From Actinomyces sp. ICM47 (GTDB taxonomy: Bacteria; Actinomycetota; Actinomycetes; Actinomycetales; Actinomycetaceae), in assembly GCF_000278725.1 (NCBI RefSeq), contig NZ_ALCA01000088.1:1-30513 (forward strand): 30,513 bases of DNA, given 5' to 3'. The notes beneath the pieces were generated by a model. It was not told the DNA's origin. It saw only the letters and a list, made by a program, of their open reading frames with translations, and made no database searches. Of this stretch, positions 10,815-30,513 are shown one piece after another (within the stretch, counting starts at the first letter, position 1; each line of letters begins with the position of its first letter). Position numbers and translations under genes: made by a program.

Positions 10815-10822
10815 GGTAGAGC
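10815..10822. repeat. 8-bp target-site duplication, right copy
   Basis: GGTAGAGC immediately follows the IS inverted repeat and matches the copy at 9354-9361. Confidence 0.9.
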
Positions 10823-12833: not shown

Positions 12834-12858
12834 GAACTCAATGATGAGAGGAAGAGTC

Positions 12859-13877: not shown

Positions 13878-14513
13878 GTGAGAGGTGACGTCGTGTCGGA
13901 TCGCAGACTGGCCTCGACAATCACGGTGGGCGGCGCGACGAACGCGGGAACGTTTGAGGCGGCTGAGCTGATGGCCGCTGGCATGAGTGCGCGTGAGGCG
14001 AGCGACGTGTTATTCGAGCAGAACCTGGTGGTCGCGGGCTCGGAGTCGACGCGGCGACGCTTGGCGAGCGCGACGACGAAGCACCTGTCGTTCCTGGAGG
14101 ACGACGCCCTCCGATTCGTCGCCAGTCGCGAGTACGGATGGGAGCTTGTCATGTGGCTGGCTCTCGTGACGGAGTCCTACGTGTTTGCGGCGTGTGCGCG
14201 CGAGGTTGCCTGGATCCGTCTGGTCGTCGATGAGGCTCCGCTGACAGCGTCGGATATCGACAACTTCGTGGAACGCCAACGCGGGGTGGATCCCGCGATG
14301 TCGACACTGACAGTAAAGAGTGGCCAGAAGGTGCGATCCGTATTTCTGCGCTGCATGCGAGATGTGGGTTTCATCAACGAGATCGGTGTTGCTTTGCCGG
14401 TCTTGGTCCCGGTGGGGGTTGCCCGCTTGGTGAACGCGGCTCCGCAGCCGTGGGGTTGGCCGATGCGGGAGTCGTTCCCGGTCGCGCAGTTCCAGTTTGA
14501 TGTCCTCGGCTGA
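13878..14513 (+). CDS. brxA: BREX protein BrxA
   Basis: 211 aa, usual BrxA (DUF1819) length. The N-terminal region has the family layout: a Gly/Ala-rich start, helices 'AAELMAAGMSAREASDVLFEQN', trimmed here to AAELMAAGMSAREASDV, then a Thr/Arg-rich turn (STRRRLASAT). The middle is a helical bundle with the NusB-like character reported for BrxA. It is the first gene of the BREX operon and is followed by brxB. BrxA is a small DNA-binding component of type 1 BREX, needed for restriction in some systems. A GTG at 13893 with a GAGAGGTGA ribosome site just upstream is an equally good or better start. No WYL-type BrxR regulator gene precedes it in this window. Confidence 0.85.
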   Translation: MRGDVVSDRRLASTITVGGATNAGTFEAAELMAAGMSAREASDVLFEQNLVVAGSESTRRRLASATTKHLSFLEDDALRFVASREYGWELVMWLALVTESYVFAACAREVAWIRLVVDEAPLTASDIDNFVERQRGVDPAMSTLTVKSGQKVRSVFLRCMRDVGFINEIGVALPVLVPVGVARLVNAAPQPWGWPMRESFPVAQFQFDVLG

Positions 14514-14587: not shown

Positions 14588-14628
14588 AAGCCCGGTAAGG
14601 GGTGCTGCGCGAGAGGAAGGTACGGTCG

Positions 14629-15276
14629 GTGTCGAAGCGTGGAGCGTATCTGGATTCGCTCAGGGAGACCTTTGATTGTGCCTTCCGGGTGCTCACGTCG
14701 GAGCGCTTCAAGAAGATGGAGGGCCTGGGCAACGAGGTTCCTTTCTTTGTCCTGCGCTACAAGCCGGAGTGGGAGCCGACTGTCGACGAGGAGTTCTCGA
14801 GGCTGCGTCGCCGCCTGCGCGAGGAGCGCTACCACCTGGCCGATGTCGACGTGTTCGGGCTCGCGGTGAACATCTGGAAGAGATCTCCTTTTTTCGATCA
14901 GATGTTGGCGATGGAAAAGACGTTGCCTCCGGAGACTTTCCGGGATGCGCTGAGCAAGGTAATCGACGTCGAGGGTTTGCTCGCGCCCGCTATTAAGAAG
15001 GCTGTGGACGAGGCCGGGGGAGAGGATAGCGTTGACGCCGTCCTGCTCTCGGGGGTGCACCATCTGTTTCCGCTCGTGCGCACGCATTTGCTGCTGAACT
15101 GCCTGCAGCCCCTGTTGGGGCGCGTGCCGCTGGTCGTGACTTTCCCGGGGTCGTACCACCAGTCGCCGTCCACTCACTCGGCGCTCGTCCTCTTCGATCA
15201 AATCTCCCAGGACAACTACTACCGGGCTTTTGATTTGGTGGACTTTTCACTTACTCTAGAACCGTCGGCGAACTGA
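14629..15276 (+). CDS. brxB: BREX protein BrxB
   Basis: 215 aa from GTG 14629, chosen because GAGAGGAAGG lies 8 bases upstream; GTG 14602 is an alternative with no ribosome site. DUF1788-type protein. The C-terminal half has the diagnostic core: VLLSGVHHLFPLVRTH, then LLGRVPLVVTFPGSY, then the acidic/aromatic end YYRAFDL. This resembles the fold of the BrxB/PglZ-partner family. BrxB is a core BREX type 1 protein thought to bridge PglZ/PglX and BrxC. It ends 18 bases before brxC. Confidence 0.87.
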   Translation: MSKRGAYLDSLRETFDCAFRVLTSERFKKMEGLGNEVPFFVLRYKPEWEPTVDEEFSRLRRRLREERYHLADVDVFGLAVNIWKRSPFFDQMLAMEKTLPPETFRDALSKVIDVEGLLAPAIKKAVDEAGGEDSVDAVLLSGVHHLFPLVRTHLLLNCLQPLLGRVPLVVTFPGSYHQSPSTHSALVLFDQISQDNYYRAFDLVDFSLTLEPSAN

Positions 15277-15294: not shown

Positions 15295-18200
15295 ATGGAC
15301 ATGAAGGGTCTGTACGCGAAGGATATTTTCCGGTCGATCGACGGTGTCATCAAGGCTGATGACGTCTCGAAGGTCGCCTCCGAGGTCGACGAATACGTTA
15401 TGACCAGCGAGATCCGCAGCGGTCTGTCGCGGATTGTCGATGCGTGGAACCAGGTCGATGCTCCGTCGAACGGCGTGTGGATCGCGGGTTTCTTTGGGTC
15501 GGGTAAGTCGCACCTGCTGAAGATGCTGTCCTACCTGCTGGGTGAGCAGGCGGGAAGCCAGCCGATGACCCGCGAAGATGTCGAACGAGCCTTCGAACAG
15601 AAGGTCGCAGGCGATGAGACACTTATTGCGGACCTCAAGAGGAGCCTGCATACGCCCATGCGCGCGGTGCTCTTCAATATCGACGCCAAGGATGATAAGT
15701 CGACGCGTGAGCGCGGATCGGCAATGATCGAGGTCTTCTACAAGGTCTACTTTGAGGCGCGCGGCCTGTACTCGAAGGATCTGGGAGTTGGTGCACTCGA
15801 GTGTGACCTGGAAGATCGGGGAGAACTGGCGCGTTTTCGCGAGGCCTACCAGGAGGAAGCTGGGCATACCTGGGAGGTCGGTCGCGTCAACACCGTCTTT
15901 TCGGAGGCGCTTGTCTCGAGGGCGCTGGCCCGCCTTGGGCACCAGGTGGATCAGCCCTTCCGCAGCTATCGGGAGCAGATGAACCTGTCGGCCGAGGCCT
16001 TCGCGCAGGACGTGGCCTCGTGGCTTGACCGTCAGGGGCCTCACCAGCGCATCGCCTTCTTCGTCGACGAGGTCGGCCAGTTCATCGGCGACGACTCTCA
16101 GCTGATGCTGAACCTGCAGACCATCACCGAGCAGCTGGCGACGCATTGCCCCGGTCGCGCCTGGGTCTTTGTGACCTCGCAGGAGGAACTGAGTGGTATT
16201 ACGGCGCAGATGAACGAGCGCCGTAGCACGGACTTCTCCAAGATTCAGGGGCGCTTCGCGATCAAGGTGAGCCTGTCGACGGAGGAGGTCACGGACGTGA
16301 TCGCTCGCCGACTGCTGACAAAGAGTGAGCAGGGGGCGGAAGACCTGGACACGCTGTGGCAGCGTCTCGGCGCGGGGTTCCCGTCGATGTTCCGTTTCCC
16401 AGTGAAGACGAAGAAGTACGATAACTACCTGACGAGGGATAGCTTCGTTGCTAAATACCCGTTCGTGGACTACCAATTTGAGATGTTCACGCAGGCGATG
16501 CGAGGCCTGTCCGATAACGACCTCTTCACGGGCCGTCACTCGTCGGTGGGTGCGCGTTCGCTGCTGGGCGTGTGTCAGCAGATCGCGCAGGAGCTGACGG
16601 ATGACGAGCTGGGTACGGTTGCGTCTTTCGATCGCTTCTACGACGGCATCGCGGCGATGCTCAAGTCCGACGTGAAGGACAATATTGGGCGAGCCGCACA
16701 GGATTCGCGCACGTGTGACTCCTTCACGATGAGCGTGCTGAAGGTGCTCCTTCTCGTTCGCTACGTGGATTCCTTCCATGCATATCCGCGCAATATTGCG
16801 GTTCTGCTGCGCCGTTCCCTGGATCAGGATGCGACTGATCTGGAAACACGTGTTGAGCGTGCGCTTCGCATCCTGTCGGATCAGGTGTACGTGCAGCGTC
16901 AGGCGGATGGAACCTACGCGTACATGACAAATGAAGAAAAGGAAGTCCGTCGAGAGATTCGTCAGATCACCGTGGAGTCCAGGGAAATAGCGGATCTGCT
17001 GCGCACGGACATCCGTAAGCACGTCGGTACCTCCGCGACGAGCTTCGTGTATCCCGGAACGAACCGACGCATGGGCGTGTCCCTGTTCGTCGATGGACGC
17101 CGCGAACAGGCCGAGCCGCTGGTAATCTCGGTGTCCACGCCGCAGTCCTCCCTGGACGAGGCGGGTATTCGTAACGAGAGTGCCTATCGCCATGACAGCC
17201 TTTCGTTGGGGCTGGATATCAGCTCCGAGATCCTCGAGGATGTGCGAGTCTTCTGCCAGACTGAGGAGTATGTGAAGCGTCAGGCAGGCGCTGCCTCAGG
17301 CCTTCGCAAGCGCATCATCCTGGCGCATAAGGAAGACAATGAGCAGCGTCGTCGAGTGATCGGCGAGGCCGTGAAGGATGCGCTTATGCGGGCGTCGTTG
17401 TTTGTTGCGGGGGAGGAAGTGAAGACGGGTACGGCGAAGACGCCGGCAGACGTGATTGAGCTGGGACTGACTCGTCTTGCTCAGAAAGTCTACCCCCGTA
17501 TCGAGGATGCGAAGCCGCTGGCGGGCCTCAAGGATGGACAGATCGTGTCCTTCCTGCGCGATCAGGAGGACGCGACGCTGGACGTTGACCCGGGCGTGGA
17601 TATCGCGCAGAGTCTCGCGGGCGAGTGCGCCCAGTGGGTGGAGCAGGCGCGCGTGCTGAACGGACAAAACGTGTTCGTGAAGAACGCGATCGAGTATTAC
17701 GGTCGGGCCCCCTTCGGCTGGGACAAGAACGCGGTGCTGGCCATCGTGGCGACGGCCCTTCGCCTGGAGCTGCTCGAGGCCCTCGAGAACGACAGACCCC
17801 TCACTCGCACGGAGCTGGAGGGTGCCCTGCGCGACGTGACCCGCCAGGGGCGGGTGCTGCTGCAGAAAAAGAAGCACCTGGATCGCGCCGCACTCGCGGA
17901 TTTCCAGCGTTTTGTTGGTCATTTTGTCCCGAGGGAGTCCCCGCAGGATGGCCCTTCGCGCGTTCGCGCGGTTGAGGTCAAGGCGGCCGAGTGGGTGAAG
18001 CTGCTCAAGGGATACAGGTCCGACTGGTACAGCTTTGATGACGAAGTCGCGGAGGCCCTCGACCTGCTGACGCCGCTCACAACCACGCAGCACACCGAAG
18101 AGGAGATGCTTGCCCCGCAGATCCGCGGCGGATTCGACGATCTGATCGAGATTGTCGACGACTTCCTCATGCCCTACCGGGAGTTCGTGGAGGAGCATGA

Positions 18201-18804
18201 ACAGGAGCTTCGCGACGCGTTGGCCGAGGCGGACAGCCTGTCGTTCTTCGAACTCACGGAGGACGGTGAGCAGGCAATTGATGAGCTTCGAAAGCTCGCA
18301 GGTGACTCGAGGCTGTACGTGCGCACGCAGGAGATCGCGCCGCTGGTTCGGCGTATCGACGCGGCGCGTCGTGCGTTGGTGCAGGCGCAGCGTGACAAGG
18401 TACTGCGACGCATCGACGAGGCCGTGGCGGGTATTCGCGGATCCGCTGAGTTCAAGGCTGCGTCGGAGGAAGCTCGGCTGAGGGTTGATGCGGTGATGGA
18501 GCGGCTCTGTGCTGCGGTGAATTCGGTATCGAAGCCGGGTCATGCGGAGGAAATCGGCCGTCAGCTCGATCAGCGTGTGGACGACCTCTACGCCGCATTG
18601 ATCGCGTCGGCGACGCCCGCGGAGTACCCGGACCCAGACGAGGCGACGGAGCCGACCAAGAGGCCGACGATTGTGCGCCTGGCGGATCTGCTGCCGAAGA
18701 CGAACGGCCTCCTGTCGACGCCGGATCAGGTCAACGAGTACATCGAGCGCGTTCGTGAGCAGATGCTCGCGGCTGTGAACGACGGCAAGCAGCTGCGCCC
18801 CTGA
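15295..18804 (+). CDS. brxC: BREX ATPase BrxC
   Basis: 1169 aa, typical for BrxC (about 1200 aa). The N-terminal ATPase has a P-loop GFFGSGKS (residues 65-72) and a Walker B at about 250-260 (IAFFVDEVGQF). The long C-terminal region is helical and charged and contains coiled-coil-like stretches. BrxC is a large AAA-type ATPase required for both methylation and phage exclusion in type 1 BREX; it is thought to power assembly on DNA. The ATG at 15295 has AAAGGTG upstream. The next gene, pglX, starts 10 bases after its stop with an AAGGAG ribosome site. Confidence 0.92.
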   Translation: MDMKGLYAKDIFRSIDGVIKADDVSKVASEVDEYVMTSEIRSGLSRIVDAWNQVDAPSNGVWIAGFFGSGKSHLLKMLSYLLGEQAGSQPMTREDVERAFEQKVAGDETLIADLKRSLHTPMRAVLFNIDAKDDKSTRERGSAMIEVFYKVYFEARGLYSKDLGVGALECDLEDRGELARFREAYQEEAGHTWEVGRVNTVFSEALVSRALARLGHQVDQPFRSYREQMNLSAEAFAQDVASWLDRQGPHQRIAFFVDEVGQFIGDDSQLMLNLQTITEQLATHCPGRAWVFVTSQEELSGITAQMNERRSTDFSKIQGRFAIKVSLSTEEVTDVIARRLLTKSEQGAEDLDTLWQRLGAGFPSMFRFPVKTKKYDNYLTRDSFVAKYPFVDYQFEMFTQAMRGLSDNDLFTGRHSSVGARSLLGVCQQIAQELTDDELGTVASFDRFYDGIAAMLKSDVKDNIGRAAQDSRTCDSFTMSVLKVLLLVRYVDSFHAYPRNIAVLLRRSLDQDATDLETRVERALRILSDQVYVQRQADGTYAYMTNEEKEVRREIRQITVESREIADLLRTDIRKHVGTSATSFVYPGTNRRMGVSLFVDGRREQAEPLVISVSTPQSSLDEAGIRNESAYRHDSLSLGLDISSEILEDVRVFCQTEEYVKRQAGAASGLRKRIILAHKEDNEQRRRVIGEAVKDALMRASLFVAGEEVKTGTAKTPADVIELGLTRLAQKVYPRIEDAKPLAGLKDGQIVSFLRDQEDATLDVDPGVDIAQSLAGECAQWVEQARVLNGQNVFVKNAIEYYGRAPFGWDKNAVLAIVATALRLELLEALENDRPLTRTELEGALRDVTRQGRVLLQKKKHLDRAALADFQRFVGHFVPRESPQDGPSRVRAVEVKAAEWVKLLKGYRSDWYSFDDEVAEALDLLTPLTTTQHTEEEMLAPQIRGGFDDLIEIVDDFLMPYREFVEEHEQELRDALAEADSLSFFELTEDGEQAIDELRKLAGDSRLYVRTQEIAPLVRRIDAARRALVQAQRDKVLRRIDEAVAGIRGSAEFKAASEEARLRVDAVMERLCAAVNSVSKPGHAEEIGRQLDQRVDDLYAALIASATPAEYPDPDEATEPTKRPTIVRLADLLPKTNGLLSTPDQVNEYIERVREQMLAAVNDGKQLRP

Positions 18805-18814
18805 AGGAGTAGAC

Positions 18815-21800
18815 ATGAACACCTCAGTGTTGGAGTCCCTGGCGGCCGCCTCGCGCGAGCGCCTCATCGAGATGTCCGTGGCTGCGATCGAGCGCAAGAT
18901 GGCCGATCCGCTTCTGAGCGACGCCGACCGCGTGCGCCTGACCCAGGCTGTCGACAAGCATGCCGAGGCCGGTGGTAACCGGGTGCTGGGTGCTGCGAAG
19001 GTGGTTGCCTACTCCTGGTTTAACCGCCTGACAGCCCTGCGCTACATGGACGCGATGGGTCTCTCAGGTGACTACGGAGTCGTCACCCCGGCCGAGGGTG
19101 CGGGGACGGGTGTACCCGAGTGCGTGCAGCGCGCCCGCGGGGGTGACTTCGACCGACACATCGGAGAGGATGCGCGAGCGCGGATAGTGCAGCTGCTGTT
19201 CGATAATCAGGACCTTGATGCATACGTTCTGCTGCTCCGCGAGTACTTCACCTCGTGGCACCTGGTCATGCCGGGCGTATTCCCCGAGGCGGAAGACTGG
19301 ACGAACCTGGTTCCGCCAACGGACCTCCTGTCGGCTGGTGAGTCTGTGCGTGCCGATATCGTTGCGGCGATCAACCCCAACGATTCTGGACGCATGGACG
19401 TTGAGGTAATCGGCTGGCTCTATCAGTTCTACATTTCAGCTCGTAAGCAGGAAATCAACGAGTCGAAGGCCAAGATCGACAAGGACACGTTGGCTCCCGT
19501 CACGCAGCTCTTTACCCCGCACTGGGTGGTGCGCTACCTGGTGGAGAATACGCTGGGGAAGCAGTGGCTGCGTGCCCACCCGGACTCCGCGCTCCGGGAG
19601 AAATTCGAGTACCTGGTGACCCCTGCCGAAGGACAGGAGGATGAGGGCCTGGCAATCTCCAACCCCGAGGACTTCCGCGTCATCGACCCGGCCTGCGGCT
19701 CTGGGCACATGCTCACCTATGCCTTCGACGTCCTGTGGGAGATGTACGCTGAGGCCGGATACCCGACCAGGCAGATCGCTCGCCTGATCCTGGAGAAGAA
19801 CCTGCATGGTGCGGACGTGGATGGGCGCGCGGCGCAGCTCGCTTCCTTCGCCTTGACGATGAAGGCCGTCGAGCATAATCCTGGTTTCTTGGGGCGTATC
19901 GAGCGCCAGAGTCAGCGAGATGGCGAGACCTCGTGGCAGGGGCCCAGAATCGTTCACGTTGAGTCTATGGAACTCGATGAGCTGAGCCCCGCAGAGATCG
20001 CGGATGCCTCCGACGATGGAGTGTCCCTCGGCATGTCTCAGCTGATCGAACAGCTGCGCTATGCCGACGCCTACGGATCGCTGATCCGTGTGCCCGAGGG
20101 TGCGTCTACTCTGTTCCGCGAGATCGCGCGCCGCATTGAAGCGGGGGAGAAGCAGCAGGTGCTGGGCGGCGCGGACAGTGAGGAGTGGCTGCGCGCCGCC
20201 GACATGTGCGAGATCCTTGAGGACGGACGCTACACGACCCTGATTGCGAACCCGCCTTATCTCAGCATGAAGAAGGCGAAAGATCCACTCAAGCGGTTCG
20301 CGAACAAACACTACAAGCGTAGTTCCACAGACCTGTGCACGATGTTTATCGAGCGTGCTGCTTCCCTCGCTCAACGTCGTGGTGCGATCGGTATGATCAC
20401 GATGCACGCGTGGATGTTCCTGGACTCGTATCGAGAACTGCGCCCGTGGATGTTGTCGACCATGAGTATCGACTCGATGGCTCACCTTGGTACGCGTGCC
20501 TTCGACTCGATTGGGGGAGAGGTCGTCCAGACGACCGCTTTTACGATTACGAATGCAACTAGCGATGTCGACCGTGTCGGCGTCTATTTGCGGCTAGTAG
20601 ACGGTCGAAACGAAGCTGAAAAAGACCTTGTTCTCCGAACGGTAGCGTGTGAACAGAAGCATGACATTCGCTTTGAAGTCTCACCCGCAACTTTTGCAGT
20701 GATTCCCGGAAGGCCCATAGTGTACTGGGCTAGTCGCCAAATGCTTAACGCTTTTGAAGCGGGCGTCCCGTTGGGAGAGGTGGCGCCCGCGAAGCAAGGG
20801 CTCGCGACCGCTGATAACGAGCGATTCCTACGTCAGTGGTTCGAGGTAAGCGCCGACCGCTCTTACATGCAGGCCCGCGATCGTGCGGATGCCCAGGCCA
20901 GTGGTGCACGCTGGTTCCCACACAACAAGGGCGGCGAGTTCCGCAAGTGGTGGGGCAACCAGGACTACGTTATCAACTGGCAGGACGATGGCCGTGAACT
21001 TTGGGATTTCAGACCACGCTCGGTCATCCGAAATCCCGATTGTTACTTCCGTCCCTGTGTTTCGTGGGCGCGTGTGTCCTCAGGTGATCCGTCATTCCGA
21101 TTGTTTGATTCATCTTCTACATTTAACGACAAAGGTGCCGCTGTATTTTTGAGCTCGCATCAGCAAACATATGAGATGCTTGGCTATTTGAATTCGAGTA
21201 CAACGTTAAAGCTTGAATCTACAATCGCTCCAACCGTCATGTTCGAGGTTGGCCAGGTGAAGAATCTCCCCTGGATCAAGCCCGAGTCCTTTGATTCGGC
21301 GGGAGTCGAGCGGTTGATCGAGATTTTCCGCGCCGACTGGGACGCCCGTGAGACCTCGTGGGACTTCGCCCGGCCTCCCTACCTGCGCGGCGGGTACTCG
21401 CTGCTCCAGGATGCCTTTGACGACTGGTACCGCCGCAGCTGTGAGACTGCCGATGAAGCGCGACGCCTGGAGACGGAAAATAACCGCTACTGGGCCGAGG
21501 TCTACGGCCTCGCGGACGAGGTGGAGATCAACGTTCCACTCTCGCGAGTCTCCCTCACCTATAACCCGCGGTTCGCCTTCGCCCCCACGAAGGGTGCGCC
21601 CGAGCGCAGCGAGGAGGAATACCGCTGGCTGCACTACCAATGCAGCGCGCGCGAACTCATCTCCTGGGCCATCGGCGTCACGATGGGCCGCTACAGCGTC
21701 GACGTGCCCGGCCTCGTACTGGCCGACCAGGCCTCGTCGCTTGACGACTTCCGCGCCCGCGTCGCCGAGGCGCGCCTCGAACCCGACGATGACGGCATCA

Positions 21801-22537
21801 TTCCCGTCACCGGCGGCGCCTTCGACGACGATGCCTCGCGCCGCGTCAGGGCCGTGCTGCGCGTTGTCTTCGGTGCCGCTGATCTGGGTGACAACATCGA
21901 GTTCCTCACTCGCTGCCTGGCCGTGAAGCCTGGCAGCTCGAGCGCGGAGTTCGTGCCGCCGGCGATCCCGGCCGACCCCGAGCGGGCCCTTGAGGACTAC
22001 ATGGCGAAGTCCTTCGCCGCCGACCACCAGAAGGACTACAGCGGCCGCCCCGTGTACTGGTCTCTTGAGTCTCCGAAGGGCACGTTCCGGGCGCTCATCT
22101 ACCTGCACCGCTACACGCCTGACACGGTTGGCCAGGTGCTCACCAAGTACGCGGCTCCCTTCGTCGATCGACTCAAGGCCGAATCGGAGGCCGTCGGGCG
22201 TGAGCGTGACGCCGTGATGGGCGACGACAGGAAGGCCGATCGCGAGCGCGCCCGCATCGACAAGAGGCGTGCGGAGATCGACGCGACGATCGCGGAGGTT
22301 CAGGGATTCATCGACTCGGTCCTGCAGCCTCTCGCTCAGCGCCGCATCCACTTGGACTTGGACGACGGCGTGCGCATCAACCGCCTCAAACTCGCTTACG
22401 GCTGGCGCTCGGATCTGGCTGACCTGCCCCAGCCCGCGATCGGCGTTGCCACGGCGGCAGTCAAGAAGGAGATCGAGAAGGATCTCAAGTGGGCCCACAA
22501 GGAGGTCGCAAAGAACAACGCATGGTGGAGTGAGTAA
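18815..22537 (+). CDS. pglX: BREX-1 adenine-specific DNA methyltransferase PglX
   Basis: 1240 aa, the usual size. Methyltransferase motif I is IDPACGSGHMLTYAFD (about residues 290-305), and the N6-adenine catalytic motif NPPYLS is near residues 479-484. Before these lies the helical N-terminal domain, with TQLFTPHWVVRYLVENTLG leading into the catalytic domain. The C-terminal half holds the target-recognition region and ends in a long coiled coil (about 1125-1170). PglX methylates an adenine in a short non-palindromic site on host DNA and is needed for exclusion of unmodified phage. Two internal stretches (about 20530-20760 and 21000-21250) look AT-richer than the rest. Its TAA overlaps the RT start by one base (TAATG). 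Confidence 0.93.
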   Translation: MNTSVLESLAAASRERLIEMSVAAIERKMADPLLSDADRVRLTQAVDKHAEAGGNRVLGAAKVVAYSWFNRLTALRYMDAMGLSGDYGVVTPAEGAGTGVPECVQRARGGDFDRHIGEDARARIVQLLFDNQDLDAYVLLLREYFTSWHLVMPGVFPEAEDWTNLVPPTDLLSAGESVRADIVAAINPNDSGRMDVEVIGWLYQFYISARKQEINESKAKIDKDTLAPVTQLFTPHWVVRYLVENTLGKQWLRAHPDSALREKFEYLVTPAEGQEDEGLAISNPEDFRVIDPACGSGHMLTYAFDVLWEMYAEAGYPTRQIARLILEKNLHGADVDGRAAQLASFALTMKAVEHNPGFLGRIERQSQRDGETSWQGPRIVHVESMELDELSPAEIADASDDGVSLGMSQLIEQLRYADAYGSLIRVPEGASTLFREIARRIEAGEKQQVLGGADSEEWLRAADMCEILEDGRYTTLIANPPYLSMKKAKDPLKRFANKHYKRSSTDLCTMFIERAASLAQRRGAIGMITMHAWMFLDSYRELRPWMLSTMSIDSMAHLGTRAFDSIGGEVVQTTAFTITNATSDVDRVGVYLRLVDGRNEAEKDLVLRTVACEQKHDIRFEVSPATFAVIPGRPIVYWASRQMLNAFEAGVPLGEVAPAKQGLATADNERFLRQWFEVSADRSYMQARDRADAQASGARWFPHNKGGEFRKWWGNQDYVINWQDDGRELWDFRPRSVIRNPDCYFRPCVSWARVSSGDPSFRLFDSSSTFNDKGAAVFLSSHQQTYEMLGYLNSSTTLKLESTIAPTVMFEVGQVKNLPWIKPESFDSAGVERLIEIFRADWDARETSWDFARPPYLRGGYSLLQDAFDDWYRRSCETADEARRLETENNRYWAEVYGLADEVEINVPLSRVSLTYNPRFAFAPTKGAPERSEEEYRWLHYQCSARELISWAIGVTMGRYSVDVPGLVLADQASSLDDFRARVAEARLEPDDDGIIPVTGGAFDDDASRRVRAVLRVVFGAADLGDNIEFLTRCLAVKPGSSSAEFVPPAIPADPERALEDYMAKSFAADHQKDYSGRPVYWSLESPKGTFRALIYLHRYTPDTVGQVLTKYAAPFVDRLKAESEAVGRERDAVMGDDRKADRERARIDKRRAEIDATIAEVQGFIDSVLQPLAQRRIHLDLDDGVRINRLKLAYGWRSDLADLPQPAIGVATAAVKKEIEKDLKWAHKEVAKNNAWWSE

Positions 22538-24126
22538 TGAGCACGAAGCCGAATCCCACCATTCTCGATCTGGATCACGATAAGGCTCGGCGCCTTTTGA
22601 TGCAGCCCGAGTCGTACTGCAATGTGCCGCTTCCTGAATACTATGACTTTACTGGAGTTTTATCTGAAGCCGGAAAACTTGCTCGAAAATATCGAAGTTC
22701 ATGCGTCACCAATAATGGGCTACGAAAGTCAATGAGCGGAAGTGTTTGTTCCGCCGGTTACCGTCCAGACTCTTGCGAGATAAAGCATATATATGAAGGT
22801 GTGAACTACCGGATTCTTGCAAATAAAGACGGTCTTCTTAGTTGGCGTCCGTTGGAGTTGATTAATCCGATAATCTATGCAGCAATAGTTTATAAGTTGA
22901 CTGAGAGGGCGAGCTGGGAACTAGTGCGATCTCGTTTTGCAGAATTTCAGCAAAATGAGCAGATTGAGTGCTGTAGCATTCCACGAGGTTTGTTTACGTA
23001 CGCGCAAAAAAGTTCTGTAATGAATTGGTGGGAGTCATTTGAGCAGAGGTCGATCGCATTGTCGCTCGAATTTCCGTATATGGGTAAAACAGATATATCT
23101 GACTGTTATGGGGCGATATATACGCACAGTATTTCCTGGGCTCTTCATGGGAAGGTGCAGGCAAAGAATGGTGGTAGGGGTAGTAGCCTCCTTGGTGATT
23201 ATATTGATAGTGAAATTCAGAATATGCACTCACGGCAGACTGTTGGTATTCCTCAAGGGAGTGTGCTTTCAGATTTAATTGCTGAAATGGTGCTTGGATA
23301 TGCGGATTTGTCGTTATCTCGAGAGCTAGAAAATGACCCTGCGCTCGTAGATTGTGAGTACAAAATTCTGCGATATCGAGATGACTATCGCATATTCGCA
23401 AGCTCTCGTGAGGGCGTGCATTCAATTCTACTGGCGCTCATGAAAGTTCTTTCAGGGCTGAATTTTAAGCTTGGGGCGGCGAAGACAGCTATCTCCGATG
23501 ATGTTGTCCTTGATTCTGTCAAAGCTGACAAAATCGAGTGGCTTTTGACTGGTCGCGCGCATTCATCTATACATAAACGACTTCTCATGCTGAGTCGTTT
23601 TGCTCGCGACTATCCACAGTCGGGAACACTCGTCCGCGAATTGCAGAAAATTAGTAATTACCTAGAGACTACGAAGCGTTTCCCAGGTAAGCGAGATGTC
23701 TTGGTGGCTCAGGTTGTTGATATTGTCGTGCGCAATCCGCGATGTTATCCAATCGGCGCCCGTATCCTCAGTCTGCTGCTGCGAAAAGAGGAAAGTGATG
23801 CGCAACGCGACTTTCTCGTCAAAATTATCAATCGGTGTCGAATGACTCCAAACAGTGGGCTGTTTGAAATTTGGCTTCAACGAGTTGCTCGAGTCTTGGA
23901 TATTAGAATGAGCTATGACGAGTCGATGTGTTGTGCAATCGAAGCTTTTGTCATTGGTGATTGTGATGTTGTCAATCCATGGCCATGGCAGTGGATGAGG
24001 GATCCAGTTCGTGCTGATCTTGAGGCTCTCTCAATTATTGATATTGATAAGTTGAATGGTATCTCCGATGTCATCTCTTCTGATGAAGTCGGGGATTTGT
24101 CTTCGTACCCTCGAGCAGGCGCGTGA
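22537..24126 (+). CDS. Reverse transcriptase (UG/Abi-like) embedded in the BREX operon
   Basis: 529 aa. RT palm motifs are intact. A pre-palm segment SWRPLELINPIIYAAIVY (102-119) precedes motif A, KTDISDCYGAIYTHSI (184-199, Asp186). Motif B is GIPQGSVLSD (237-246). Motif C is RYRDDYRIF (279-287, catalytic Asp282/Asp283). A motif D-like GAAKTAI follows. The C-terminal ~180 residues are helical (YPIGARILSLLL, GLFEIWLQRV), like the alpha-repeat domain of UG/Abi defence RTs. No intron maturase X or endonuclease domain and no adjacent msr/msd-like RNA are seen, so a group II intron or retron is unlikely. The gene is visibly AT-richer than pglX and pglZ and starts inside the pglX stop codon (TAATG). 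I cannot assign the UG group. Confidence 0.9.
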   Translation: MSTKPNPTILDLDHDKARRLLMQPESYCNVPLPEYYDFTGVLSEAGKLARKYRSSCVTNNGLRKSMSGSVCSAGYRPDSCEIKHIYEGVNYRILANKDGLLSWRPLELINPIIYAAIVYKLTERASWELVRSRFAEFQQNEQIECCSIPRGLFTYAQKSSVMNWWESFEQRSIALSLEFPYMGKTDISDCYGAIYTHSISWALHGKVQAKNGGRGSSLLGDYIDSEIQNMHSRQTVGIPQGSVLSDLIAEMVLGYADLSLSRELENDPALVDCEYKILRYRDDYRIFASSREGVHSILLALMKVLSGLNFKLGAAKTAISDDVVLDSVKADKIEWLLTGRAHSSIHKRLLMLSRFARDYPQSGTLVRELQKISNYLETTKRFPGKRDVLVAQVVDIVVRNPRCYPIGARILSLLLRKEESDAQRDFLVKIINRCRMTPNSGLFEIWLQRVARVLDIRMSYDESMCCAIEAFVIGDCDVVNPWPWQWMRDPVRADLEALSIIDIDKLNGISDVISSDEVGDLSSYPRAGA

Positions 24127-24134
24127 TACGCTTT

Positions 24135-24174
24135 CGCGGAAGGGGAGGCTTTCCGCGCAGCTGATGGCGCTGCG
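24135..24174 (+). other. Two adjacent small hairpins in the RT-pglZ gap
   Basis: CGCGGAA/TTCCGCG (24135-24141 with 24151-24157) and CGCAGC/GCTGCG (24156-24161 with 24169-24174) share two bases, so they are alternatives or form a stacked structure. This 74-base GC-rich gap is the only sizeable untranslated stretch between pglX and brxL. It may be a processing or attenuation structure, or a scar of RT insertion. Confidence 0.4.
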
Positions 24175-24200
24175 AGGAAGAGTGAGGAAAGGCGATACTG

Positions 24201-26750
24201 GTGAGCGGAATCGATGCCTCTCGGCTGGCAGAGGAACTGAACGCCCTGCTCGAGCATGGGCGCATTGTCACGTGGTTGGATCGCAACGGCGAATACGCCG
24301 AGGACCTTGACGCCGTCCGAGAGCTGCTCGACGGGGCTACACTTATCACGATCAACGCCAACCTCTTCGAAACCAAACTCCGCATCTTCGCCGAAGACAC
24401 CAAGTCCCGCTACGTTCTCTACTGCGGAGGCGAGCTCCCGCCCCTCGAAGAAGACCTCCTCGCCGACGTGCGCTGCGGATACCCCACATTCAAGGCCGAC
24501 GCTTCGACCCTCCTCGTGCGCGAACTCGGCGTCGACCCCGGCCTGGCCGCAGTCATCGACGAATACGCCCCCTTCTTCAACTCCACCGCCCGCGTCGCCG
24601 ACCTTAAGAAGCACCTCGGAGCCATCAGCGACGCCGACAAGCGCTCCGACCGCAGGACCTTCCTCGCCGCGATGAGCGCCGTTCTGCTCAAGACGCAGCA
24701 GCGTTCCTTCTCCGTCCTCTTCGCCAAGCTCGCCTCCATGACGCAGGACAACCCGCTCGACGCCCTCAAGTGGGGCCTCGACGCGTACTTCTGGGAAGGT
24801 GCCCACGCCATCTGGGGGTACGACGGCGAACACAGCTTTGACGCTCTCATGACATGGCTTTTCGTCATGAACGCGAACGGCTGGGACCACCGGCACAACT
24901 CCGCCCAGCGCGACTTCAGCATGTGGACCCGCGACGTGGCCACGCGAGACGACGCCCGCCGATGGGCCAGGCGCGTCGATGAGGCAACCGGTGCCAGCGC
25001 CGCCCTGCGCGATGCGGCTACCGACGCCCTCCTCATCGACACGACCACGCCCGGCGTTGACCGAGAACTCATCTCCCGCCTCGTCCGCGGAATCATCGAC
25101 GGATCCGTTGGCGTCGCTCAAGTCGAAGAACAGCGCGGAAGGCGCCGCGAAGGCCTCTGGTTCGACGACACGGAGGCGCTGTGGGACGCTGCGCGCGCGG
25201 GGGCGCGTCTGCTCACCCACCTGCGTGCGCTCCCGGGCATCGCCTTCTCGGACGCGGCCGAGGGCTTCGCCCGCTACACGAACCCGGACAGCGGCTTGTG
25301 GGCCATTGACCAGGAGTACCGCCACTACGTGCGCGCCTCCCGAGCCGTTCACGTCGATGATGTCCTCACCGACCTCGACCGGCACGTCGAAAATGCGTAC
25401 TGTGACGACTACCTGCGCCCCCTTTCGCGCACGTGGGACGACGCGCTGCGCGGCATGCGCACATGGGATATCGCCGTGCCCTCGTCTAGCGGGCGCATTG
25501 ACTCGTTCCACCGTCTCCTCGTCGCAGGCTCCCACAGGCGAACCGTCGTCATCATCTCCGACGCTCTCCGATACGAGGCCGGCGTCGAGCTCGCCGACCA
25601 CCTGCGCTCCCTTGGACGCGGCGCGATCGCCCTGAATCCCTGGTACACGATGCTGCCGTCGATCACCGCCCTCGGAATGGCCGCGCTGCTCCCGCATCGA
25701 GAGCTGACCCTTAACGTACGCGGCAAAGACCAAGTGGTCGTCGAGGCTGACGGCCGACCGACGTCCGGGATCGATGCACGCCGGACAATCCTCGAAGGTG
25801 CCGATGGGCGTGCGTTTACCTATCAGGAGCTCGCGAGCGACTCCGTCAAGTCGATGCGCTCGAAGTTCAAGGGTGCCTCCGCCGTGTACATCTACCACGA
25901 TGTCATCGACGCGATCGGCGACCACGCGGCCTCGGAAAGTGATACCCCCGATGCCGTCAACCGTGCGATTGCCGAGCTCTCCGGCCTCGTCGGCAAGCTC
26001 ATTTCCGCGGACATCACCCGCATCCTCGTGACCGCTGACCACGGCTTCCTCTTCCAGGACAGCGAACCCGCCAACGACGACACCGCGAAACAGGACGGCG
26101 TTCCGCGCGGGCGTTCCGTCTCCGTGAAGAAGCGTCGCTATGTCCTCGGCAAGGACCTGGGGTCGACGGATGACTTCGTCGCTTTCGACGCGACGAGCGT
26201 CGGCCTGACAGACGGGCCGAGCATCGCCCTACCCTACGGCACCCGCCGCATTCGCACCCAGGGCCGAGGAAACCGCTTCGTCCACGGAGGAGCCTCCCTC
26301 CAGGAAATCACAACCCCCGTCATTGAGGTGTCGGTGGGTAGTAGGGGTGCCGAGGACGTCCGCGACGTCGGTATCGCCCTGCATTACGACGACATGTCCC
26401 TGAAGGTTAACCGTTTCAGTCCACGTGTCATCCAGCGGGAACCCATCAGCCCGACGCGACGCCCTCTGACCGTCACGATTGGTCTCGAGAGCATGTTGGG
26501 TGAGCAACTGTCGAGCACTCGAGTCCTTACTCTGGATGCGGCTGAGCGCTCCGAGGTGTCGCTCAAGCAGAGCAGCGAACTCATCCTTTTCGACGGGGTG
26601 CTGCAGAGACACTCCGGCGAAGCCGTCAGGATCGTCGCCTACAAGACTGTTCACGGACAGGTCGTCGGCGAGGCCGTCGCCACCCACGAGCTGACCCTCA
26701 ACGACAACGGGTTCGGAGGGTTCGGAGGATTCGGAGGATTCGACCTATGA
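24201..26750 (+). CDS. pglZ: BREX-1 phosphatase-fold protein PglZ (type A)
   Basis: 849 aa. The GTG start has GAGGAAAGG 8 bases upstream. The N-terminal part reads IVTWLDRNGEYAEDLD, as in type A PglZ proteins. The PglZ alkaline-phosphatase-like core has metal-ligand contexts VVIISDALRYEAGVELADHL (about 447-466) and LVTADHGFLFQD (about 609-620). The C-terminus is a GGF repeat (GFGGFGGFGGF) before the last two residues, encoded by imperfect 9-bp tandem repeats. PglZ is essential for BREX defence and methylation and interacts with PglX; some homologues have nuclease or phosphodiesterase activity. The stop overlaps the brxL start (ATGA). Confidence 0.92.
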   Translation: MSGIDASRLAEELNALLEHGRIVTWLDRNGEYAEDLDAVRELLDGATLITINANLFETKLRIFAEDTKSRYVLYCGGELPPLEEDLLADVRCGYPTFKADASTLLVRELGVDPGLAAVIDEYAPFFNSTARVADLKKHLGAISDADKRSDRRTFLAAMSAVLLKTQQRSFSVLFAKLASMTQDNPLDALKWGLDAYFWEGAHAIWGYDGEHSFDALMTWLFVMNANGWDHRHNSAQRDFSMWTRDVATRDDARRWARRVDEATGASAALRDAATDALLIDTTTPGVDRELISRLVRGIIDGSVGVAQVEEQRGRRREGLWFDDTEALWDAARAGARLLTHLRALPGIAFSDAAEGFARYTNPDSGLWAIDQEYRHYVRASRAVHVDDVLTDLDRHVENAYCDDYLRPLSRTWDDALRGMRTWDIAVPSSSGRIDSFHRLLVAGSHRRTVVIISDALRYEAGVELADHLRSLGRGAIALNPWYTMLPSITALGMAALLPHRELTLNVRGKDQVVVEADGRPTSGIDARRTILEGADGRAFTYQELASDSVKSMRSKFKGASAVYIYHDVIDAIGDHAASESDTPDAVNRAIAELSGLVGKLISADITRILVTADHGFLFQDSEPANDDTAKQDGVPRGRSVSVKKRRYVLGKDLGSTDDFVAFDATSVGLTDGPSIALPYGTRRIRTQGRGNRFVHGGASLQEITTPVIEVSVGSRGAEDVRDVGIALHYDDMSLKVNRFSPRVIQREPISPTRRPLTVTIGLESMLGEQLSSTRVLTLDAAERSEVSLKQSSELILFDGVLQRHSGEAVRIVAYKTVHGQVVGEAVATHELTLNDNGFGGFGGFGGFDL

Positions 26751-28963
26751 GCATCTCGCCCGAAGAAGCCCTAGAGCGCGAGGATTCCCCGGCCTCGTCT
26801 CTGATCGGGGGTAGCGAGGGAGGAAAGCTCGCGGAGTACGAGGAAATCGCCGCGCGCGCATACGACGGCTTCGTCGTCCGCAAGGACCTGGTCGGCCAGG
26901 TCAAGGGCAACGCGATCGTCCCCTCCTACGTGCTCGAATTCTTGCTCGCTCAGTACTGCGCGACCACGAGCGAGGCGGCCATTGTCGAGGGTGTCGAGAG
27001 TGTCCGTCGCATCCTCGCCAAGCACTACGTCAACCGCGGAGATTCCGAGCTCATCAAGTCACGCATCCGCGAGGAGGGACAGTATCGGATTATCGACAAG
27101 GTCTCCGTCAACCTTGACGAAACGCACGACCGATACAACGCCTCCTTCGAAAATCTCGGGGTCACCAACGCGCTGGTATCCGACGAGACCGTTCGTGAGA
27201 ACGACCGCCTCCTGACCGGTGGTGTCTGGTGCCTGGCTGAGATGTCCTACGTGCCGATGGGAGATTCCGGAGCAAAAGCATCCAGCCCGTGGATCGTCTC
27301 CCGCCTTCAAGCCATCCAGCTGCCGCGCTTCGATTTCGGCCGCTACTGCACGGGGCGCGCCTCTTTCAGCACCGACCAGTGGATCGACCTGCTCGTCGCC
27401 TCGGTCGGTCTCGATCCCGATAAGCTCAGCCGACGCTCGAAACTCTTCCAGCTGACCCGCCTCATTCCCTACGTCGAACGCAACTATAACCTCGTCGAGC
27501 TGGGCCCCAAGGGCACCGGAAAATCGCATATCTACTCCGAATTCTCGCCCCACGGCATCCTCGTGTCGGGCGGCGAGGTGACGCTGGCAAAACTCTTCGT
27601 TAATAACGCGACCCGGCGCATCGGCCTGGTTGGCTACTGGGACGTCGTCGCCTTCGATGAATTCGCCGGGCACAAGCGCGTGGAACGCAGCCTGGTCGAC
27701 ACGCTCAAGAACTACCTCGCGAACAAGTCGTTCTCACGTGGCGACAGCACGATCACGGCCGAGGCCTCGATGGTCTTCGTCGGTAACACGACGCGGACCG
27801 TACCCGCGATGCTGGCCAGCGCCGACCTTTTCGAGGCCCTGCCCGAGGCGTATCACGACACGGCGTACATGGACCGCGTCCACTACTACCTGCCCGGATG
27901 GGAAGTGGACATTGTGCGGCCCGAGCTCTTCTCGCGCGGGTACGGGCTCATTGTCGATTACCTGGCGGAGGCGCTGCGGCACCTGCGTACCCTGGATTAC
28001 TCCGGTGACCTGGATACCCTCGCGACGCTCGATCCGGCGATGTCCAAGCGCGATCAGGACGCTGTGCGAAAGACGTTCTCGGGCCTGGCGAAACTCATCT
28101 TCCCGGCACGCGATGGCGAGCCTGAGGAACTCGAGGAGCTGCTCCGCTTCGCGATCGAGGGGCGTAAGCGCGTCAAGGATCAGATCATCCGACTCGACGA
28201 CACGATGGCTGCGTCCGGGTCCCACTTCACGTACATGCTGGGACGCGTGGACCAGGACCACTACAATGCCTCGAGCGCCCGATCCGTTCCCACGCAGGAG
28301 GAACTGGACTACCCGCAGTACTTCACGTCGCACGGTGATGCTGATGAGCGGGGGAGTGGTCAATGGGATGCCGGAGAGCTTTCCGACGGTCTTCCGAAGT
28401 CGGACGTTGTAGTCGATGCACGCGGAGACAATAAGCCGGCCTCGCCCGTCTTTGACCGTCGAGCCCTGTTGAAAGCACGCGCCATCCCCAAGCGCTACAA
28501 GATCGAGCCGAGCATGGGTAATTCCATGCCGGACATCCTGCTCCCGTACCTGTTCGATGCGGCTGAGATACGGATCCGTGACCCGTACTTGCGCCAGACG
28601 CACCAGGTTCGAAACGTGCACGAAATACTGCTGCAGCTGATCCAGAATGCCGATGTCGCGAAGCTGCCGCACATTGTCATCGAGACGTGCGCCAGCGACG
28701 AGGACATCTATCGCTTGCGGCAGGAAGAGACGTTCAAGCAACTACAGCAATCGTGGGAGCCCTTCGGCATCGTGATCGACTGGAGCATCGTTGATTACTT
28801 CCATGACCGCTGCATTACGACCGACACCGGCTGGGTCATCGACCTCGGTCGCGGGCTGGACGTCTATGACGCGTACACGCCGCTATCGCAATTCGACCCT
28901 CGTTATGCGATCCCGCACCTGCGGCGGACGAAGGAGATTACGATCAACATCAGCAGGGAGTAA
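26747..28963 (+). CDS. brxL: BrxL-type AAA+ protein with a C-terminal MIT_C-like domain instead of Lon protease
   Basis: 738 aa. The BrxL core is clear: Walker A ELGPKGTGKS (251-260), SGGEVTLAKLFVN (274-286), Walker B GYWDVVAFDEFAG (296-308), FSRGDSTI (329-336) and the sensor region FVGNTT (344-349). The linker EGRKRVKDQIIRLD (471-484) normally leads into a Lon-like S16 domain with a GDMSLGG-type motif, but none is present. Instead residues about 590-720 read like MIT_C, the phospholipase-D-like domain: IRIRDPYLR (608-616), QVRNVHEIL (620-628), FHDRCI (685-690) and TGWVIDLGRGLDVY (694-707). BrxL is the DNA-binding AAA+ effector of type 1 BREX and forms ring assemblies. Last gene of the operon. 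Confidence 0.88.
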   Translation: MSISPEEALEREDSPASSLIGGSEGGKLAEYEEIAARAYDGFVVRKDLVGQVKGNAIVPSYVLEFLLAQYCATTSEAAIVEGVESVRRILAKHYVNRGDSELIKSRIREEGQYRIIDKVSVNLDETHDRYNASFENLGVTNALVSDETVRENDRLLTGGVWCLAEMSYVPMGDSGAKASSPWIVSRLQAIQLPRFDFGRYCTGRASFSTDQWIDLLVASVGLDPDKLSRRSKLFQLTRLIPYVERNYNLVELGPKGTGKSHIYSEFSPHGILVSGGEVTLAKLFVNNATRRIGLVGYWDVVAFDEFAGHKRVERSLVDTLKNYLANKSFSRGDSTITAEASMVFVGNTTRTVPAMLASADLFEALPEAYHDTAYMDRVHYYLPGWEVDIVRPELFSRGYGLIVDYLAEALRHLRTLDYSGDLDTLATLDPAMSKRDQDAVRKTFSGLAKLIFPARDGEPEELEELLRFAIEGRKRVKDQIIRLDDTMAASGSHFTYMLGRVDQDHYNASSARSVPTQEELDYPQYFTSHGDADERGSGQWDAGELSDGLPKSDVVVDARGDNKPASPVFDRRALLKARAIPKRYKIEPSMGNSMPDILLPYLFDAAEIRIRDPYLRQTHQVRNVHEILLQLIQNADVAKLPHIVIETCASDEDIYRLRQEETFKQLQQSWEPFGIVIDWSIVDYFHDRCITTDTGWVIDLGRGLDVYDAYTPLSQFDPRYAIPHLRRTKEITINISRE

Positions 28964-29186
28964 ACTGTCCGTTCGTCAATCGTATAGTTGTGATGTAATG
29001 CCGACCGCTGAGCGCATCGTGAGTGCAGTATAGTTGGGCACTTATAGTGGCGAGTGTCACTAGCACTTGTTGTGACGGGCGCATTGCTTAAGGGTATCGT
29101 TGAATATAACATGACCGGTTCCGCTACCCGCTATGCAGTGGGAGTCCAGGGCCGGTCCTTGCTATTCGGGAGAAGCGATTTGTGCC
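28964..29186. other. Gap between brxL and the Abi gene
   Basis: An AT-rich 223-base gap with no gene. It contains two near-identical short motifs (GTATAGTTGTG at 28982, GTATAGTTGGG at 29029) and a weak dyad (AGTGTCACTAGCACT near 29054). The Abi gene therefore probably has its own promoter here, but I cannot fix one. Confidence 0.35.
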
Positions 29187-30107
29187 GTGACTCGTGTGAA
29201 AGTGTTCAAAACCTACGCTGAGCAGGTCGAGCTGCTTCGAAGTCGTGGGATGCGTATTGATAATGTTGAGCGCGCGGAGAAGGAGCTTGCTCAACTGAAC
29301 TACTATCGACTATCGGGGTATTGGTATCCTATGCGCCGTTTTTCTTCAGGTACCCGTAAGGCGTGCGACGAGTTTGTTGACGGAGCTTCGTTTGATTTGG
29401 TCATCGACCTCTATGAGTTTGACGAACAGATGCGGCATGTCGTATTCGGCGAACTTGATCGTATTGAAATGGCCATCCGCACCATGCTTGGGTATCGCTT
29501 GGGAAGCATTGATCCTTTCATTTATCGAGATGTGAAACGTTTGAGTGCGTCTGCTCGTCAACAGAATAAGGGGAGTTCCCGTAGTAAACATGCTGTTTGG
29601 ATGGAGAAATTTGAAAGAGCTGCGAAGTCTTCAAGGGAAGACTTTGTCGAGCATCATCGGAAACATTATCAAGGCGATATGCCTATCTGGGCAGCTGTCG
29701 AAATCATGGATTGGGGGATGTTATCTTACTTATATGATTTTTCTCCGACGTATGTACGTGACGATATTGCGCATGAGTGCCGACTTACGGCTCCGCAGCT
29801 CGCATCATGGTTGAAATGTCTGAATATTGTGCGAAATTATGTCGCCCATCATGCGCGTATATTTAATCGTGTTTTCGATATTAAGCCGAAGCTTAGTAAT
29901 GATGAGCGGTTGCAGGCGGTGGCTGGCGTGAGCAATCGTTCTTTTGGGCAGTTGTCACTCATCCAATACTTGCATCGCCAACTTGGTCTATCTCCCGCCA
30001 ATCGCCTGCCTCAGTTGCTTGATATGTTCCCGCATAACGATGTTGTTCCCTTGTCGCGAACTGGTGCTCCTGATGGATGGCAAAAGCTTGCGGTGTGGGA
30101 GCGCTAG
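29187..30107 (+). CDS. Abi_2 (AbiD/AbiF-like) abortive-infection protein with HEPN motif
   Basis: 306 aa from GTG 29187; GGGAGAAG lies 11 bases upstream, and the frame is open back to ATG 29133 without a ribosome site. The N-terminal pattern matches the Abi_2 family: TYAEQVELLRSRGM, then AEKELAQLNYYRLSGYWYP and DLYEFDEQMRHVV. The C-terminal VRNYVAHHARIFNR carries the R-N-x3-H signature of HEPN ribonucleases. Abi_2 proteins cause growth arrest or death of infected cells, probably by RNA cleavage, and the family includes a Cas13-related HEPN lineage. It is codirectional with the BREX operon and of similarly low G+C to the RT, so it is probably part of the same defence island. Confidence 0.85.
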   Translation: MTRVKVFKTYAEQVELLRSRGMRIDNVERAEKELAQLNYYRLSGYWYPMRRFSSGTRKACDEFVDGASFDLVIDLYEFDEQMRHVVFGELDRIEMAIRTMLGYRLGSIDPFIYRDVKRLSASARQQNKGSSRSKHAVWMEKFERAAKSSREDFVEHHRKHYQGDMPIWAAVEIMDWGMLSYLYDFSPTYVRDDIAHECRLTAPQLASWLKCLNIVRNYVAHHARIFNRVFDIKPKLSNDERLQAVAGVSNRSFGQLSLIQYLHRQLGLSPANRLPQLLDMFPHNDVVPLSRTGAPDGWQKLAVWER

Positions 30108-30513
30108 TCTAGAGTGCTCCATGTCGCACAGACGTGCACGTATGCGATGTGTTGCGGAACGGATGTTCTTGGTTCGGGGTACGCGTATGCGGGTTGGTAA
30201 GGGTTCGGGGTGGAAGATAGGGGTTCGTGTGCACCACGCGCCAAACTGGTCCGACAAATCGGCCCGCAACCAGCCTAAACACGCCCTGAAACCCCGCCCA
30301 GGCCTCGTCCGAAGCAGAGCCAAAAAGTGAACGCCGCCACGAAAAATGGCTTAGGATGGTGGGCGCGCCGACGAACCCCAATGACGGGAACGACCGGCAC
30401 AACACAGTATCCAACGCAGCAGCAACACACCAACCAGCAGACCGCAAGGCCAGCACAGCGCGGACGCACCGTCGCAACCGTGCGCAGCCGGAGCACAGCG
30501 GGGGAGCGGCACC
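30108..30513. other. Right-end region without a confident gene
   Basis: G+C rises to the chromosomal level. Two overlapping plus-strand frames are open to the right edge: from ATG 30356 (MVGAPTNPNDGNDRHNTVSN) and from GTG 30327 or ATG 30381 in another frame. Both are Asn/Gln/Thr-rich and neither has a good ribosome site, so one may be the start of a gene cut by the window edge. A loose dyad lies near 30119-30150 just after the Abi stop. Nothing else is supportable. Confidence 0.3.

Follow-up and report, generated by a model that had tools for sequence, protein, structure and literature searches.

We analyzed a 30,513-nucleotide stretch of DNA from Actinomyces sp. ICM47 (contig NZ_ALCA01000088.1; hereafter, the window), in which a complete type 1 bacteriophage exclusion (BREX-1) operon carries a reverse transcriptase (RT) gene among its core genes. 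The operon lies on one strand in the order brxA-brxB-brxC-pglX-RT-pglZ-brxL (Table 1), and the BREX genes flanking the RT were called by curated cut-offs (brxC, pglX, pglZ, and brxL) or by Pfam (brxA and brxB). A sequence-only reading of the window had placed an intact RT of 529 amino acids (aa), richer in AT than both neighbors, between pglX and pglZ with its start inside the pglX stop codon, and the coordinates and composition confirm this. The final A of the pglX TAA stop codon is also the A of the RT ATG, a one-base overlap, and the GC content of the RT gene is 45.8% (42.6% at the third codon position), compared with 61.5% in pglX and 64.8% in pglZ.

Table 1. Genes, motifs, and intervals of the BREX-1 locus, in window positions.
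Feature	Position	Strand	Basis or remark
brxA	13878..14513	+	PF08849
brxB	14602..15276	+	PF08747
brxC	15295..18804	+	NF033441, 807 bits (cut-off 400)
pglX, BREX-1 adenine methyltransferase	18815..22537	+	NF033452, 1168 bits (cut-off 500)
Interval unmatched in the relative L130	22529..24201	+	blastn
RT (Abi-P2 family reverse-transcriptase-like DNA polymerase)	22537..24126	+	529 aa, ATG start
Tyr35, counterpart of priming Tyr61 in solved Abi-P2	22639..22641	+	alignment to 7r08; Tyr in 99/99 relatives
Catalytic Asp186	23092..23094	+	Asp in 99/99 aligned relatives
GIPQG motif, residues 237-241	23245..23259	+	read in translation; 99-row alignment
YRDD catalytic motif, residues 280-283	23374..23385	+	both Asp in 99/99 rows
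Predicted C-terminal helical domain, about residues 341-520	23557..24096	+	AlphaFold2 model; inside the range aligned to 7r08
Spacer between RT stop and pglZ	24127..24200	+	74 nt, contains a 9-bp hairpin
pglZ type A, GTG start	24201..26750	+	TIGR02687, 432 bits (cut-off 270)
brxL with C-terminal phospholipase-D-like domain	26747..28963	+	TIGR02688, 552 bits (cut-off 329); PF13337 and PF16565
AbiD-like abortive infection gene, 3' of brxL	29133..30107	+	PADLOC AbiD, 215 bits; Pfam Abi_2; 48.8% GC

The catalytic residues of the RT are intact. Across 99 aligned relatives, D186, G241, R281, D282, and D283 were invariant and the remaining RT motif positions were conserved in 96–98; Asp186, GIPQG, and YRDD, the motifs named in the sequence-only reading, are all present and conserved. 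In a PADLOC search, the best family was AbiP2 (542 bits, aligning RT residues 6-520 with positions 4-482 of the 489-position profile), followed by Drt6 (146 bits). The AlphaFold2 model of the RT (mean predicted local distance difference test score, 84.5) matches the solved structure of Abi-P2 (ORF570 of P2-type prophages; PDB 7r08) over its full length, with 32% identity in the fold alignment, and shows the bilobal fold and C-terminal helical domain of Abi-P2. Tyr35 pairs without gaps with residue 61 of 7r08, in a weak segment of 2.5 bits. Judged by profile, predicted fold, catalytic residues, and priming tyrosine, the RT is thus an Abi-P2 polymerase, in agreement with the earlier view that it is of the Abi type and ends in a helical domain. 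It shares with the solved enzyme its profile, length, catalytic residues, priming tyrosine, and two-domain full-length fold, and differs from it in its setting, a BREX-1 operon in an Actinomycetaceae-like genome.

RTs of group II introns, retrons, and diversity-generating retroelements were excluded by profile scores and fold rank, so that the gene stands apart from group II intron and retron RTs, as had been proposed. The group II intron model scored the RT at 50 bits (cut-off 300), and no retron-named model appeared among the matches listed (25 of 38). An Rfam scan of the window gave no match at gathering scores, and the region around the RT-pglZ spacer (24100-24215) folded no better than shuffled sequences (z = -0.70); an RNA-templated defense-associated RT with a noncoding RNA was rejected on these grounds. 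The solved Abi-P2 is reported to synthesize DNA without a template from a tyrosine, that is, in a protein-primed manner, and a Y61F mutation abolishes this synthesis (PMC9508834). By analogy with that relative, the RT of the window may likewise build untemplated DNA on a tyrosine.

To place this insertion in context, we compared the junction between pglX and pglZ with that of related operons. In the relative L130 (genome G333), blastn aligned the end of pglX (window 21242-22528) at 88% identity, a stretch beginning inside the pglZ start codon (24202-24981) at 95%, and the remainder of the locus (25096-30400) at 89%, while the interval holding the RT had no match. At the same joints, L130 carries an OLD/AriA-like ATPase gene (PADLOC HEC-01A, 380 bits) and a gene for a 205-aa partner (HEC-01B, 232 bits). 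Because an operon 88–95% identical in its flanks has a different gene pair at this site, the pglX-pglZ junction is a modular cargo slot whose contents lend themselves to comparison among close relatives. The same pair fills the slot of L131, whose operon is complete. Such an ATPase with a partner recalls PARIS (AriA/AriB) and other OLD-ATPase pairs, although PADLOC ranks this pair as HEC-01A/HEC-01B and the AriA matches of the two ATPases are weaker, at 84 bits in L130 and 97 bits in L131. The partner is presumably Toprim-like, an assignment made by motif reading and not by family match.

Slot occupancy was scored in 39 other pglZ-bearing stretches, comprising 22 from the Actinomycetaceae-type family, 7 plasmids (of 299 plasmid records), and 10 from two class samples; weak pglZ matches in four further genomes (G383, G528, G722, and G994) lay outside this survey. 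The slot was occupied in 17 stretches and empty in 10; in the remaining 12 it was not assessable, pglX being inverted, cut, or absent from the stretch or a contig end intervening. Four of the 17 occupied slots (L177, L178, L181, and L184) were judged by gap length alone, and among loci with a damaged pglX, L177 (broken) was scored as occupied and L165 (split) as empty. Occupied slots made up 10 of 12 assessable loci in the Actinomycetaceae-type family and 7 of 15 in the other sets. The premise that BREX-1 normally runs from pglX directly into pglZ is therefore not borne out in this survey, since something lies between them in 17 of the 27 assessable loci.

The occupants are diverse. Among further Actinomycetaceae-type loci, one slot holds Shedu with a Schlafen/AlbA protein (L136), three hold an AAA_13 ATPase with an AlbA-like protein (L138, L142, and L144, the latter two by PADLOC rows only), two hold AlbA alone (L141 and L147), and single slots hold AAA_13 (L148) and Fic (L151); three of the four AAA_13 occupants gave weak PrrC matches of 24–26 bits. 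Three of the seven plasmid loci (L162, L163, and L166) have annotated cargo in the slot, and in L163, a plasmid of Acinetobacter johnsonii, a DUF262-HNH gene lies between pglX and pglZ as the RT does in the window. In three other loci (L134, L140, and L143), pglX matches occur on both strands with an open reading frame (ORF) of 402–478 aa between the parts, and pglX looks invertible there.

We also investigated the surroundings of Abi-P2 RTs elsewhere, in 87 loci comprising the best 80 of 565 confirmed genome relatives and 7 viral-contig loci; chosen as the best 80 of 565, they are the nearest to the query and not a random sample, and had no matched control set of other defense genes beside them. 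By hand reading of coordinates, 22 of the 87 loci lie in type I restriction-modification (R-M) clusters, 16 of them in the order hsdS-RT-hsdR, four with hsdS upstream and no clear hsdR in the available DNA, one as R-S-RT, and one as RT-S-R. All R-M matches above 60 bits were on the same strand as the RT (25 of 25 HsdS and 21 of 21 HsdR). The profiles used were those of HsdS and HsdR, iterated from seeds, with HsdM outside the profile survey. Automated labeling had given 14 S-RT-R, 6 RT-R, 4 S-RT, and 63 other loci. Hand relabeling concerned four loci in which the overlap of hsdS with the RT frame, taken from stop to stop, exceeds the automated limit (L014, L024, L038, and L074), one reassigned as having hsdS alone, its HsdR match being a fragment of 54 bits (L048), and three in which fragments were dropped (L021, L040, and L057).

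Pfam searches of neighboring proteins agreed with these assignments in part of the loci. Methylase_S was found in 14 of 46 upstream neighbors scanned (46 of 55, at least 150 aa; 32 of the 87 loci had no upstream neighbor) and HSDR_N in 4 of 44 downstream neighbors scanned (44 of 54). Three further HsdR proteins, the HsdM of L014, and an HsdM-HsdS fusion in L073 were also confirmed. In L014 and L053, a Schlafen/AlbA protein, a class also found in BREX slots, lies between the RT and hsdR. The R-M-linked RTs span several bacterial phyla and one archaeal bin, as judged by record titles.

In a tree of 99 RTs, built quickly without bootstrap and carrying long-branch and composition warnings that extend to the window RT, the contrast between R-M-linked loci (22 loci and the window) and loci without R-M (37) required 14 changes, at least 10 of which were forced by starred branches. 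No label was given to 28 of the 87 loci, which lacked R-M genes and had less than 3 kb of DNA on either side, and L062, described below, was labeled as no R-M. Shuffled labels required 18.6 changes on average, and only 7 of 500 shuffles were as low as 14. The label is thus somewhat clustered, and the R-M association seems to combine inheritance with many regains or losses. The branch that holds the window RT is actinobacterial, and neither of its other readable members (L001 and L002) is linked to R-M.

Based on these data, we consider it rather probable that an Abi-P2 polymerase was acquired into the cargo slot of this BREX-1 operon as a back-up abortive defense. A protein-primed, template-independent DNA polymerase gene would have come from a lower-GC source and entered the pglX-pglZ slot of an operon that is complete in all other respects, where it would be read with the operon and its translation coupled to that of pglX. 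The polymerase would form a second, abortive line of defense, idle while BREX functions; if a phage evaded or disabled BREX, untemplated DNA synthesis would then kill or arrest the cell. Because related operons have other defense genes at the same site, the RT is probably a back-up weapon and not part of BREX proper. A core component would be present in most BREX-1 loci, and an Abi-P2 profile matched in none of the 39 other stretches.

Several results weigh against this reading. The recurrence of the RT in BREX loci, which the sequence-only reading had proposed as a check, was not observed: a profile of Abi-P2 derived from the alignment of 99 rows had no match in the 39 other pglZ-bearing stretches, 27 of them with an assessable slot, and among 213 genomes of the same family, 8 matched the RT and 23 matched pglZ (one of them at only 1.8e-4) with no overlap. 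With 17 of 27 slots filled, the slot is thus common and the RT a rare occupant, and its presence in BREX rests on one window. The closest RT relatives (35 clusters, P0002-P0036, at 47–94% identity) lie outside these counts. The L130 operon, which supplies the different cargo at the same joints, is itself incomplete, with a shortened pglX and no brxA, brxB, or brxC match in its 19-kb stretch. R-M genes were absent from 65 of the 87 Abi-P2 loci by hand count (63 by automated labels), some with short flanks, so that the tie to restriction is not obligatory for Abi-P2. Finally, how untemplated synthesis yields phage defense is described as unclear even for studied members (PMC12039810).

Searches starting from the RT gave matches in 4 of 189 genomes from the family of G001 (Alloscardovia), in 8 of 213 from that of G002 (a bin of Actinomycetaceae), and in 5 of 394 sampled from the class of G002, with families named after the record titles of L001 and L002; the best identity was 44%, and the matched genomes therefore include none of the close clade of the RT. 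The 7 viral-contig Abi-P2 loci held no BREX genes, and a scan of viral contigs with the single RT protein gave no match. The 80 genome loci likewise held no BREX gene apart from one distant methyltransferase match in L062, which was rejected as a BREX gene, the enzyme being of type IIG. In this Bacteroidales genome (L062:7149-15258), a type IIG restriction-methyltransferase, confirmed directly before the RT, is followed by the Abi-P2 RT and then by a YobI-like P-loop ATPase.

One alternative is that the RT is a hitch-hiker, a stand-alone phage-defense gene with its own triggers that settled in a permissive gap of the operon and has no tie to BREX. P2-type prophages are known to carry Abi-P2 as a lone gene, and one Abi-P2 gene was found in the P2-EC30 record; most of the 87 loci lack R-M genes, and an RT in BREX was seen once. 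BrxU, a GmrSD type IV enzyme of pEFER, is likewise an accessory defense gene in a BREX-1 island; it is a modification-dependent nuclease reported to work without BREX (PMC8565348; PMC12707154) and, despite its location, to suffice alone for its share of the defense (PMC8565348). A random gap, however, would not readily account for the fit of stop and start codons, the different cargo at the same joints in L130, or the recurrence of the order hsdS-RT-hsdR, in which the R-M matches share the RT strand in 46 of 46 cases. These features fit selection for place, though not necessarily for control, and we regard a purely incidental insertion as possible but less likely than not. That the RT gene was joined to the BREX operon artificially during assembly is extremely improbable; the sharp GC shift at both RT edges would fit such a chimera, but stop and start codons mark both joints, and L130 has other cargo between the same points. 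The sequence-only reading had also suggested a cDNA-based layer, in which the RT would copy an RNA, perhaps of phage or operon origin, into cDNA used by BREX. Apart from the presence of an RT-fold enzyme beside BREX genes, little favors this: Abi-P2 is by far the best match, its solved member synthesizes untemplated DNA from a tyrosine kept in 99 of 99 relatives, and neither the Rfam scan nor spacer folding gave any sign of a dedicated RNA, so that cDNA copying is very improbable.

A further alternative, which overlaps with the back-up reading and is a stronger form of it, is that the BREX complex would silence the RT, or the RT would sense anti-restriction proteins, with release upon BREX inhibition. 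Guarding BREX against anti-BREX proteins had been suggested before, and this plausible idea is now better founded because of the type I R-M pattern of Abi-P2. The PrrC gene is embedded in a type I R-M locus; PrrC is silenced by the linked enzyme and activated when the phage anti-restriction factor Stp of T4 inhibits that enzyme (PMC2610378; PMC12707154), and PARIS is reported to sense Ocr (PMC12707154). As with PrrC and RloC, the RT is cargo in a modification-based restriction operon, BREX in the window and type I R-M in 22 of 87 loci, 16 of which place it between the specificity and nuclease genes, and the slot ATPases of L130 and L131 have AriA matches. PrrC, however, is a nuclease of tRNA, and its control by the R-M enzyme is proven (PMC12707154), whereas the likeness of Abi-P2 to it is positional; position alone shows neither contact nor control, and the BREX case is single. 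We therefore hold control by BREX only tentatively. It is similarly possible, though not the likelier outcome, that Abi-P2 polymerases are general restriction guards, repeatedly installed between hsdS and hsdR or between pglX and pglZ and kept idle by the complex until phage anti-restriction proteins disturb it, whereupon untemplated, protein-primed DNA synthesis would begin. If so, the window would hold the first BREX member. An RT in BREX with relatives in type I R-M operons suggests a concrete trigger for Abi polymerases, namely, interference with the restriction complex.

BREX loci are known to carry embedded effectors, auxiliary and back-up nucleases (PMC12839542). The RT likewise lies inside the core locus, and Shedu, OLD-type, and Schlafen proteins of that catalog fill the same slot elsewhere; those effectors are nucleases, whereas the RT would add a polymerase to BREX cargo. 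The term "reverse transcriptase" does not occur in the main text of that paper. In the open-licence literature, we found no report of an RT inside BREX or of Abi-P2 inside R-M operons, although prior reports of either are possible. PMC4244168 has no hits for "restriction" or "BREX", and in two Abi structure papers, the mentions of hsdS and hsdR are strain genotypes. RTs in the vicinity of R-M genes have a precedent in a cyanobacterial bin, where a retron-type RT is reported near a type I R-M system (PMC9716671). The RT of the window is thus a known kind of gene, Abi-P2, in a setting for which we found no earlier report.

Other parts of the locus also vary among relatives. The brxL gene, with its phospholipase-D-like C-terminus, corresponds to the variant named HKD in PMC12839542, an assignment made here by domain and not by motif. 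The AbiD-like gene also sits 3' of brxL in L130, where an AbiD-like fragment (window 29057-29383) occurs upstream of the shortened pglX as well, so that AbiD-like sequence lies on both sides of the remaining BREX genes. Metagenomic relatives of the window PglZ (P0258, P0279, P0309, and others) include shortened or fused forms (window 24201-28963). In P0309, with 233 member sequences, PglZ residues 16-487, with about 50 missing inside, are joined in frame with the C-terminal 253 residues of BrxL. In forms of 708 and 617 aa, the PglZ domain lies closer to the N-terminus than in the window, by 138 and 229 residues, respectively. These forms may reflect deletion, decay, or an assembly effect.

Upstream of brxA, a 299-aa ORF (12841-13740, plus strand, 50.3% GC) had no Pfam, NCBIfam, or PADLOC match at an E-value of 0.001 and is possibly a regulator. 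Further upstream, a xylulokinase gene on the minus strand (10789-12293) is split, with FGGY_N and FGGY_C in two overlapping frames. The nearest named relative is from Mobiluncus mulieris (80% identity over 88% of the frame), which marks the host as Actinomycetaceae-like, and a 523-aa relative that is 97% identical has both domains together.

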